Below are positions 1,950-31,549 of a stretch of 64,000 nt of DNA, piece after piece (position 1 is the stretch's first letter; every line of letters starts with the position of its first letter). This stretch comes from an uncultured Jannaschia sp. (GTDB taxonomy: Bacteria > Pseudomonadota > Alphaproteobacteria > Rhodobacterales > Rhodobacteraceae). The position numbers and the translations under genes were made by a program. The notes below the pieces were generated by a model that worked only from the letters and a program-made list of their open reading frames with translations, was not told where the DNA came from and ran no database searches. The stretch covers positions 124,001-188,000 of the forward strand of contig NZ_CANLTQ010000002.1 in the NCBI RefSeq assembly GCF_947494025.1. Direction: 5' to 3'.

Positions 1950-2149
1950 CTGCTGCTCTATCTTGTGGTGTTCGTGCCTGACTAGGCGAAATGCGGCCCT
2001 CGCGAAAGACCGTCCCGGCCGACCCGAAGCCGCCCGCCCGCGATCCGTTCCTGTCGCGCCGGCGTTCACCTCGTCGCGCGCCGCAGGGTTTTCGCGCGGA
2101 TGCGGAGCCGCTAGACGCGGAGAACCGACAGCTTTTCCGGAGATCCGAC

Positions 2150-3166
2150 ATGCCGCACATCCTCCTCACCGGCGGGGCCGGCTATATCGGGTCGCACACC
2201 TATGTGGCGCTGCGCGAGGCCGGGTTCGCGGTGACGATCCTCGACGACTTCTCGAACTCCGACGGAGGCGTGATCGACCGGCTCGCCCGTTTGACCGGCG
2301 CGGATGTCGACGTGGTGGAGGGAACGGTGCTCGACCGCGCGCTGCTGACGCGGCTCTTCGCGGCGAAGCCCATCGACGGCGTGGTGCATTTCGCCGCCAG
2401 GAAGGCGGTGGGCGAGAGCGTGGCGAAGCCGCTCGACTATTTCGAGACGAATATCGGCGGGCTGACGAACCTGATGCTGGCGATGCGGGCGGCGGAGGTC
2501 TGGCGCCTCGTCTTCTCCTCGACGGCCACGGTCTACGGCGAGCCGGAGGTCTTTCCGCTGACGGAGGACATGCCGCTCGCCCATACCTCGCCCTATGCCT
2601 TCACCAAGGTCACCTGCGAGCGCATTCTGGAGCAGGCGGCACAGGCCGATCCCTGGCTGATCGGCGTCTTGCGGTATTTCAACCCGGTGGGGGCGCATGC
2701 GTCCGCGCTGATCGGGGAGGATCCGCGCGGCACGCCGGAGAACCTGATGCCTTATGTCGCAAAGGTCGCGACGGGCGAGATGCCGGAGCTGCGCGTTTTC
2801 GGGGATGACTACGACACGCCGGACGGGACTTGCTGGCGCGACTACATCCACGTGATGGACTTGGCCGACGCCCATGTGAAATCGCTGCAGGCGCTGCTGG
2901 ACGGGCGGGCGCACCGGCTCAACATCGGAACGGGCAATCCCGTCTCGGTGCTGGAGATGCACGGTGCCTATCAGAAGGTCGTCGGGCGCGAGCTGCCCTA
3001 CCGCATCGCGCCGCGGCGGGCGGGCGATGTTCCGAAGCTCTACGCCGATCCGAGCCGTGCGCGGTCCGAGCTCGGCTTCGAGGCGCGGCGCGACCTGGAG
3101 GAGATGTGTCGATCGAGCTGGAACTGGGTGCAGGCCCGCGCGGCGGGCTGGAAGTTCAACTCCTGA
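2150..3166 (+). CDS. galE: UDP-glucose 4-epimerase
   Basis: MPHILLTGGAGYIGSHTYVALREAGFAVTILDDFSNS...YAFTKVTCERIL...YFNPVGAHASALIGEDPRG; SDR-type GxxGxxG and YxxxK motifs. Confidence 0.93.
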   Translation: MPHILLTGGAGYIGSHTYVALREAGFAVTILDDFSNSDGGVIDRLARLTGADVDVVEGTVLDRALLTRLFAAKPIDGVVHFAARKAVGESVAKPLDYFETNIGGLTNLMLAMRAAEVWRLVFSSTATVYGEPEVFPLTEDMPLAHTSPYAFTKVTCERILEQAAQADPWLIGVLRYFNPVGAHASALIGEDPRGTPENLMPYVAKVATGEMPELRVFGDDYDTPDGTCWRDYIHVMDLADAHVKSLQALLDGRAHRLNIGTGNPVSVLEMHGAYQKVVGRELPYRIAPRRAGDVPKLYADPSRARSELGFEARRDLEEMCRSSWNWVQARAAGWKFNS

Positions 3167-3265
3167 GCCGGGCCGCCGACGGGGTGGGTCAGCGCGGACC
3201 GGGCTATATCCGGGCAGCGGCGCGCCCGGACCGGAACCGTACGGCCGCCGGCATTCGGGGCCGGA

Positions 3266-3280
3266 TTAATTCCGTATTAA
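3266..3280 (+). promoter_or_regulatory. Candidate CtrA-binding site TTAA-N7-TTAA upstream of cckA
   Basis: TTAATTCCGTATTAA at 3266-3280: perfect match to TTAA-N7-TTAA in an AT-rich intergenic patch about 70 bp before the cckA start. Confidence 0.6.
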
Positions 3281-3349
3281 GATTTATTTAGGATACGTTT
3301 ACCGCGTTATCGACGGATAGGCCGATCAGGCTCGGCGAAAGGGTGGACT

Positions 3350-5896
3350 TTGGGCGATACGGCACAGACCCTCAACCGATTGCGGACCGGGTCCACGATC
3401 TTCTTTCTTGCGGCGCTCGCCGCGGTGTTGGCGTCCTTTGTGGTGGAGCTCGACGTATCGCGCGCGCTGCTGCTCGCCCTGGCGGGATCGCTCGCGGCGA
3501 TCCCCGCCGCGTTGCAGATCGCGGCCAATGTGGACGCCCGCATGGAGCGCCGCCGGCTGAAGGCCGTGATGGAGTTCCTCGAGTTCGACACCGCCCCGGG
3601 CCTGTGCACGGACGAGGCCGGAACCGTGTTCGCGCAGAACGCCGCCGCTATCGACAAGTTCGGCGCGCAGGACGGCGCGGCGATGACGACCGCGCTGGAG
3701 GCGCTCTTCGCCAATCCGGACGCCGTCGTCCATCGCCTCCGCCACGCCGCGCGGGGGCAGGGCTCCGCGCACGAGGACGTCGTGACGCGCAGGGGCCATG
3801 TCCGCGTGGCGGTGCGCCAAATCCCCGGCGGCCTTCTATGGCGGTTCGTCGACCTCGTGGACCGGCCCGCGCGCGCGCGCGATGGGATCGGCCTGCCGAT
3901 GCTGGCCTTCGGCCCGTCGGGAACGGTGCTTTACACGAACGAGGTGCTGCGCGCGCAGGTGGGACATCGCGCCGAGCGCCTGCGGGATCTGTTCCAGGAC
4001 CTGCCTCTCGTGAGCGGTGGTCTGAACCGGCTTCTCACCGACGACGGGCCACAGCCCGTCCGCGTCATCCTGTCGGAATCGGTGAACGGGCGGTCCGAGG
4101 TTTTCGTGATGCCGGCGACGGAGCATCAGAACGATCGCGTCGGGCTCGACTCCCTGCCCGTGGCCCTTCTGCGGCTCGATTCCGAGGGCCGCGTCCTGTC
4201 CGCCAACCGGCTGGCGCGCGATCTGCTGCCGGCGACCGCGTCCCCCGGAGAGGTCCGGCTCGCCGCCATGGTCGAGGGGCTGGGCCGCAGTGTCCGCGAA
4301 TGGGTCAGCGAGGCCGCGGCCGGGCGGGGCCTTTACCGCGCGGAGGTGGTGCGGGTGACCGGCGCCGAGGTGGAGACCTACCTGCAGATCACGCTGGGCC
4401 GCCCGGTCGACGACGCGGAAGGCGGCCTGCTCGCCGTGCTGAACGATGCGACCGAGCTCAAGACCCTCGAGGCGCAGTTCGTGCAGAGCCAGAAGATGCA
4501 GGCCATCGGTCAGCTCGCCGGCGGCGTGGCGCACGACTTCAACAACCTCCTCACGGCGATCTCGGGCCATTGCGACCTGCTGCTCTTGCGCCACGAGGAG
4601 GGCGACGAGGATTTCGCGGACCTCAAGCAGATCAACCAGAACGCGAACCGCGCGGCCGCCCTCGTGGGCCAGCTCCTTGCGTTCTCGCGCAAGCAGAAGC
4701 TGCAGATGCAGCCGGTGGACCTGCGCGACACGCTGAGCGATCTCGCGCATCTTCTGAACCGGCTGGTGGGCGACAATGTCCGCCTTACGCTGCAGCACGA
4801 TCCCGGCCTCATTCCGGTCCGGGGCGACCGGCGGCAGCTGGAGCAGGTGCTGATGAACCTCGTGGTCAACGCGCGGGACGCGATGCCCGAGGGCGGCGAG
4901 ATCCGGATCGAGACCGAGTGCCGCTTCCTGAACCAGCCGCAGACCCGCGACCGGGTGACGATGCCGCCGGGCCAGTACGTGGTCATCACCGTGACCGACG
5001 AGGGCTTGGGCATCTCCAGCGACAACCTCGGCCGGATCTTCGAGCCGTTCTTCACGACCAAGCGACCGGGCGAAGGGACCGGCCTCGGCCTGTCGATGGC
5101 CTACGGCATCGTGAAGCAGTCCGGCGGCTATATCTTCGCGGATTCCGAACTCGGCGTGGGAACGCGGTTCAGCCTGTACTTCCCGGCCATGCCCGACGAC
5201 GAGAAGGTCGCCGATCTCGATGACGATCCCGACGAGATGCTCGCGTCGCCCGCCGTCGCGACGCCCGCCGTTCCGGCCAACCCGGTCGATCTGCCGGCGG
5301 CGCCCGAACGCCCGGGCAGCCGGGCGGAGGACGGGGACGCCGCGCGCGCTCCGGCGAAGGGCGACAGGGATGCGGGATCCGGGCGCGAGGATGTCGATCC
5401 GGGCAGGGCCGGAACCGCGGACGAGGCGGACCGCCTGATCGCCAAGGCGGTCCATGCCGCCCGCGCGAAGACCGGGGGCGGCGCGAACGGGGCGACCGTC
5501 GACGCGCCCGCCGAAACGACCGGGGACCGCGCGCGCCCTGTCGTGCTTCTGGTCGAGGACGAGGCGCCGGTCCGGGCCTTCGCCTCCCGCGCGCTTCGCC
5601 TGCGCGGCTACGACGTGGTGGAGGCCGAGAACGCCGAATCCGCCCTCGCGCAGCTGTCGGACGCGTCGCTCGTCGTCGACCTGTTCGTGACCGACGTGAT
5701 GATGCCGGGGCTCGACGGGCCGAGCTGGGTGCGCAAGGCGCTCGAGGACCGGCCCAAGGTGCGGACCGTCTTCATCTCGGGCTACACGCAGGACGCGTTG
5801 TCGGAAACCAGCGCCCCCGTGCCGAACGCGACCTTTCTGGCCAAGCCGTTCTCGCTGAACGACTTGACCCGCACGGTGGAGCAGGCGCTGCAATAG
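3350..5896 (+). CDS. cckA: Hybrid sensor histidine kinase/receiver CckA (TTG start)
   Basis: N-terminal TM pair, PAS-like regions, [28 protein letters not shown], HATPase [30 protein letters not shown]-terminal [39 protein letters not shown]...[13 protein letters not shown]. Upstream of recA as in related genomes. Confidence 0.92.
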
Positions 5897-6476: not shown

Positions 6477-6546
6477 GTTCGGATTCTCGCTTCCATGCCC
6501 TCCCCATCGCGCGAATTAAGGTCGATTTGAATGATTACTTGAATGC

Positions 6547-30595: not shown

Positions 30596-31222
30596 TCAGA
30601 TGATCACGCTCAGATGCGTCTCGTCGGCGCGCACGGAAACCGGACGTCGCTGCCGCCGCGATTCGCGTCCGAGGATGCCGAACTGCACCTCCGAGCCCTT
30701 GAGGTCCGCCGGCAGCTCACCGTTGCCGAGGCTTTCCCAGAGTGGCGCGTCGATCCTGAGCCGCTTGGCCGTAACATGCACCACCCAGGACGCCTTGTTG
30801 CGCGACACCTCCACGGTCGCGCCCCATGGCGTGGCCACCTCCACGCAGTTCAGCGCGAGGCAGGCCAGCCGCATCTCGGAGCGAGGACGGTCCTCCTCGT
30901 CCTGCCACAGCACCTTGGTGCGCGTCTCCGCGTACATCGCGTCGAGCGCCTCGCGCATCTCCCGCGCCGGGACGATCCCGTCGCCGGCGCCGGATCCGAA
31001 GGCGAGCCGGAAGAACCGGATGCGGGCCTTGGCGGATTCGACCGATGCCCGGATCAGCGCCATCTCGTCGCCGCCGACGCCCGTCATCTCGAGCAGTTCC
31101 AGCCCGTTGCCGATGGCCCCGATCGGACTCACCAGATCGTGGCAAAGGCGCGAGCCGAGCAGCGCGATGAGGTCCGGCTCGTCGGCGTCGTTCGCGGTGC
31201 TATGCTTCGACATGTTCCTCAT
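30596..31222 (-). CDS. chpT: Histidine phosphotransferase ChpT
   Basis: DLIALLGSRLCHDLVSPIGAIGNGLELLEMTGVGGDEMALIRASVESAKARIRFFRLAFGSGAG; ChpT-type HDLVSPIGAI...GLELL signature. Confidence 0.88.
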   Translation of the reverse strand: MRNMSKHSTANDADEPDLIALLGSRLCHDLVSPIGAIGNGLELLEMTGVGGDEMALIRASVESAKARIRFFRLAFGSGAGDGIVPAREMREALDAMYAETRTKVLWQDEEDRPRSEMRLACLALNCVEVATPWGATVEVSRNKASWVVHVTAKRLRIDAPLWESLGNGELPADLKGSEVQFGILGRESRRQRRPVSVRADETHLSVII

Positions 31223-31416: not shown

Positions 31417-31549
31417 TTGTTCGTTTCTTTCTCGTCGCATGCCGCAAGTTAACGAAGCGTTACGGCGCGTCGTGCACCGGCGCGCGCCGGCGCGATTCCG
31501 CGCGATGGCATGGCTTGCGCGATGCGGGCGCGGGGCCTAGGCAACGATC

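Follow-up and report, generated by a model that had tools for sequence, protein, structure and literature searches.

A perfect CtrA-type box stands in front of cckA, the gene for the kinase of the CckA-ChpT-CtrA relay, in Jannaschia and across most of its family. We consider a direct input of CtrA to cckA through this box, at the -35 position, to be probable, and activation is its most likely effect. The idea that CtrA feeds back on cckA is already published, and the Jannaschia case adds to it. The part worth following is a possible composite promoter in relatives, in which the box has a GANTC sequence as its partner.

The box before cckA and its conservation

The window is the whole stretch of DNA that was analyzed, 64 kb from an uncultured Jannaschia. 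The features that frame the box are as follows.

1991 to 3166, forward strand: upstream gene, an open reading frame whose true start is probably further in; presumably UDP-glucose 4-epimerase-like (galE), going by general features of that family
3266 to 3280, forward strand: perfect CtrA-type box TTAATTCCGTATTAA, TTAA-N7-TTAA with the spacer TTCCGTA, from motif match and conservation in relatives
3338 to 3347, forward strand: likely ribosome-binding site AAAGGGTGGA, read from the sequence
3350 to 5896, forward strand: cckA, hybrid histidine kinase of 848 amino acids with a TTG start, from open reading frame, domains, and homology

An earlier note on this DNA had placed a perfect TTAA-N7-TTAA at 3266-3280, in an AT-rich stretch before cckA, and had expected far fewer than one chance match per 64 kb. 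All of this holds. The match is 8/8 and is the single one in the window, where the mean over dinucleotide shuffles is 0.01; the tetramer TTAA itself occurs 6 times in the whole window, which has a GC content of 69.3%. Positions 3260-3310 are 35% GC, the AT-richest stretch in the window's first 10 kb, and the TTG start codon lies 84 bp past the first base of the box. The genome (4.39 Mb in 215 contigs) contains 18 perfect sites, compared with 3 occurrences of the reversed pattern. The name of the downstream gene also agrees with the note, by homology: the predicted product of 3350-5896 has the domain order PAS-HisKA-HATPase-receiver, and its nearest relatives are from Jannaschia (best 78%).

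Conservation was followed in a Rhodobacteraceae sample of 109 genomes, 21 from Jannaschia and 88 from other genera with one genome per genus, taking box positions relative to cckA from match coordinates. A perfect N7 box precedes cckA in 87 of the 109, made up of 21/21 Jannaschia and 66/88 other genera, and it was present in all 15 cckA loci read by eye despite a varying upstream gene. A lack of conservation upstream of cckA was the outcome that the earlier note had named as telling against the site, and the comparison came out the other way. In most of the 22 genomes that lack a perfect box, a 7/8 version lies near the start; several of these genomes are represented by weak or uncertain orthologues. 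Among cckA genes of other alphaproteobacterial families, where start codons are less certain, the perfect box was found in 3/40. From these counts inside and outside the family, the box is particular to cckA of the Rhodobacteraceae and is kept by selection.

The low GC content of 3260-3310, extreme for the first 10 kb, is what one would expect if the box were a chance match in an AT-rich promoter, kept by common descent or base composition. A control on the spacing of the half-sites contradicts this explanation. With the spacing varied from 0 to 20, no value other than 7 matches in more than 2 of the 109 genomes, and all 20 of the other spacings pooled give 13 matches against 87. The eight half-site positions are, moreover, fixed in 66/88 other genera while the spacer and flanks are scrambled. 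A chance origin is hardly credible in the face of these results.

Promoter layout and the candidate regulator

Aligning the 87 promoters on the box gives a logo of TTAA-N7-TTAA-C-N2-TT, then A/T at index 28-31 as counted from the box start. The TT at index 18-19 is conserved, and the spacer and flanks are near background. The distance from the box to the start codon varies, while the distance from the box to the -10-like element is fixed, and the family alignment therefore has a layout of the class II type, with a box near -35 at a set distance from the -10. The logo matches CtrA-activated promoters of Rhodobacter sphaeroides (PMC6180460) and the full-site promoters of Caulobacter (PMC4287350). 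In the R. sphaeroides CtrA promoters, transcription starts 23-24 nt past the box and position -11 is an A (PMC6180460), and the box of Caulobacter ctrA P2 begins at -39 (PMC4287350). Because of these distances, taken with the logo, the -10 element and the start in the window are predicted at the places given here, along with a second box-like sequence.

3277 to 3291, forward strand: overlapping 7/8 box TTAAGATTTATTTAG, its middle half-site in common with TTAATTCCGTATTAA, from a motif scan
3294 to 3299, forward strand: predicted -10 element TACGTT, index 28-33 from the box start, from the logo
3304 to 3306, forward strand: predicted transcription start, a G at 3304 or 3306, from the R. sphaeroides and Caulobacter starts

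The cckA promoter is like R. sphaeroides fla2 (PMC6180460) and Caulobacter ctrA P2 (PMC4287350) in having its box near -35. The starts of those two promoters are mapped, 23-24 nt past the box with an A near -11, whereas the cckA start is drawn from the alignment. The window's own TACGTT is a weak 3/6 match to TATAAT, and the promoter scan found no sigma-70 consensus promoter, which fits an activator-dependent promoter and proves nothing. The overlapping 7/8 box was considered as a third phased half-site and rejected, given that the relatives' logo shows no conservation of it; it is possibly a chance match.

All 21 of the 21 Jannaschia genomes have a gene for CtrA. The copy in the window's own genome (G000:C1:146278-146955) encodes a protein 73% identical to Caulobacter CtrA, which served as the query, and its 21-residue DNA-recognition segment is identical to the Caulobacter one. 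The reading of the site as CtrA-type, first made from the letters of the window, gains support from the conservation of the box, the N7-specific spacing, the -35 position with its -10-like element, and a recognition segment in CtrA that has not changed from Caulobacter. In the proposed mechanism, the box would overlap the -35 region of cckA, where it is probably bound by phosphorylated CtrA. Bound CtrA~P would help the sigma-70 polymerase to start cckA at about 3304-3306, and the level of the kinase would then depend on the output of the CckA-ChpT-CtrA relay, in a feedback that is most likely positive.

Brilli et al. (2010) predicted CtrA control of cckA and divL in cluster-B Rhodobacterales and named the feedback (PMC2877005). 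The regulator, the target, the feedback, and the restriction to Rhodobacterales are the same as here; that work was based on a weight matrix and 37 genomes, whereas the present analysis draws on about 109 genomes, a spacing control, the promoter layout, and a phased GANTC. A CtrA site before cckA has already been found in Dinoroseobacter shibae (PMC4046655, PMC6473078), for which the prediction was made again, and Ruegeria sp. KLH11 has a full CtrA site 62 bp upstream of the cckA start, with an overlapping half-site (PMC3692519). The full sites of these two promoters are like that of Jannaschia, and the expression results in the two species are mixed. Deleting ctrA in D. shibae lowers cckA in stationary phase only (PMC4046655). 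According to PMC3692519, cckA-lacZ was unchanged in Ruegeria KLH11 when CtrA was provided, and a ctrA deletion in R. capsulatus left the cckA transcript unchanged with less CckA protein. The published expression tests of a CtrA effect on cckA thus disagree. Retention of the site across the family despite these discordant tests points to selection on something that the tests may have missed, and on the sequence evidence feedback of CtrA on cckA is likely.

The direction of the effect is a separate matter. CtrA could bind the box and mainly repress or time cckA, as a brake and not an amplifier, and effects on expression that are small or dependent on growth phase in the published mutants (PMC4046655, PMC3692519) would suit such a role. 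However, a box at -35 with a fixed spacing to a -10-like element is the layout of an activator, and repressor sites in Caulobacter are half-sites over the -10 (PMC4287350, PMC6180460). We regard a mainly repressive role as unlikely. The KLH11 result could also mean that CtrA is irrelevant at the cckA promoter and that the box belongs to another OmpR-type or TTAA-recognizing regulator; an Fnr-type site has a TTAAC half in common with CtrA sites (PMC7232146). Yet the spacing of exactly 7 is that of the Caulobacter CtrA motif, and CtrA accompanies the box in every one of the 21 Jannaschia genomes. A different regulator at this site seems quite improbable. CenR, an essential OmpR-type regulator, was considered as the binder and set aside, its published motif being TGA-N8-TGA (PMC9275681).

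If CtrA does feed back on its own kinase, the relay would be self-amplifying. Such a property is relevant to the question of why motility or gene transfer agents are switched on in some Rhodobacterales cells and not in others.

A phased GANTC beside the box in relatives

GANTC is the sequence methylated by CcrM. It is the commonest gapped tetramer in the region past the box, and among the 87 box-bearing cckA promoters it is found within 61 bp past the box in 15/21 from Jannaschia and in 42/66 from other genera; the pattern was first seen in Jannaschia, and the other-genera set of the same 109-genome sample was then used as the check. The peak lies at index 41-44 (43/87 promoters), predicted to be +2 to +8. 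Within index 30-60, GANTC is present in 55/87 promoters against 11 in shuffles, and the next best palindrome reaches 19. Its distance is tighter to the box (sd 3.0) than to the start codon (sd 9.2).

3307 to 3314, forward strand: place of GANTC in relatives (55/87), from aligned promoters; the window has none here

This phasing suggests an extension of the CtrA feedback, and not a strict rival to it. Most of the family may have a composite cckA promoter, in which CtrA sits at -35 and a GANTC open to methylation lies immediately past the start, a reading that we put forward tentatively. GANTC and CtrA together would link synthesis of the kinase to the state of replication. The pair is found at cckA in 38 genomes, against about 0.57 per genome away from cckA, and it is the genome's sole composite in 22 of the 38. 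The window's genome has gcrA and a protein with a RAMA domain, as in CcrM, and cckA of Brevundimonas belongs to the GcrA and CcrM regulons (PMC7987155). Several points stand on the other side. The window's own cckA promoter has no GANTC within 3101-3450 and so falls outside the CcrM/GcrA type, and its sister has GATTG. In Caulobacter, one class of activated GANTC sites lies at -10 to -35 (PMC4287350), and a position past the start differs from this. The sequence could also be an element at the RNA level, although the GAATC and GATTC forms are both common. A disguised LexA site was tried as a further candidate and rejected, as GTTC-N7-GTTC gives 0-1 matches in these promoters.

In its broadest form, the composite reading holds that across the Rhodobacteraceae it is cckA, rather than ctrA, where DNA methylation and the replication state enter the CtrA relay, with the window's lineage keeping the CtrA half only. 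From the aligned promoters this is possible and falls somewhat short of probable. Brilli et al. (2010) described the relay as isolated from GcrA and CcrM (PMC2877005), with Tomasch et al. as a further source on this point, and the view inferred in the literature, in which methylation has no major input to the CtrA relay of Rhodobacterales, rested on ctrA promoters. The phased GANTC at cckA argues against such isolation and brings that view of methylation into question. It also offers a reason for the discordant expression tests, since the promoter may need a state of methylation or replication besides CtrA~P. No report of a phased box and GANTC pair in Rhodobacterales was found in a literature search from which subscription journals were largely absent, and the GANTC beside the cckA box seems to be a new element, apparently undescribed.

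The pair also occurs elsewhere. In the window's own genome, a box with GANTC lies on the reverse strand (G000:C2:515788-515834), before a ChvI-like response regulator that is divergent from pckA. In one genome (G054:C1), about 12 copies of the near-identical sequence TTAAGTCCAAGTTAA stand in front of a GANTC and are probably a dispersed repeat.

Other CtrA-type sites

Upstream of ctrA in 21/21 Jannaschia genomes the sequence is GTAA-N7-TTAA, with the first base G and never T. This fixed sub-consensus box, roughly 63-72 bp upstream of the ctrA start, would mark the autoregulatory promoter. Given the fixed defect in the ctrA box, the cckA box comes closer to the consensus.

The window also encodes the component of the relay that follows CckA.

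30596 to 31222, reverse strand: chpT, from a PF10090 match above the cut-off
31449 to 31463, reverse strand: 7/8 CtrA-type box GTAACGCTTCGTTAA, upstream of chpT by about 230 bp, from a motif scan

The box upstream of chpT sits past a short gene that is apparently divergent. In about half of the relatives within the genus, chpT has upstream boxes of the form GTAA, TCAA, or TTAA-N7-TTAA, at 7/8 or 8/8.

Other perfect sites in the genome adjoin radC, a GH108 endolysin gene, a DUF2793 gene, and a bactofilin gene, and a further one lies between the ChvI-like regulator and pckA. In Rhodobacterales, radC, the GH108 endolysin, and DUF2793 have functions associated with the CtrA regulon. The perfect boxes before the GH108 endolysin and DUF2793 genes are at G000:C7:78643 and G000:C12:4092, and we take these two genes to recall the lysis and head-spike genes of gene transfer agents. 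SOS genes are likewise linked to CtrA in Rhodobacterales, and in the window a 7/8 CtrA-type sequence, TTAAGGTCGATTTGA, lies at 6516-6530, immediately before recA.
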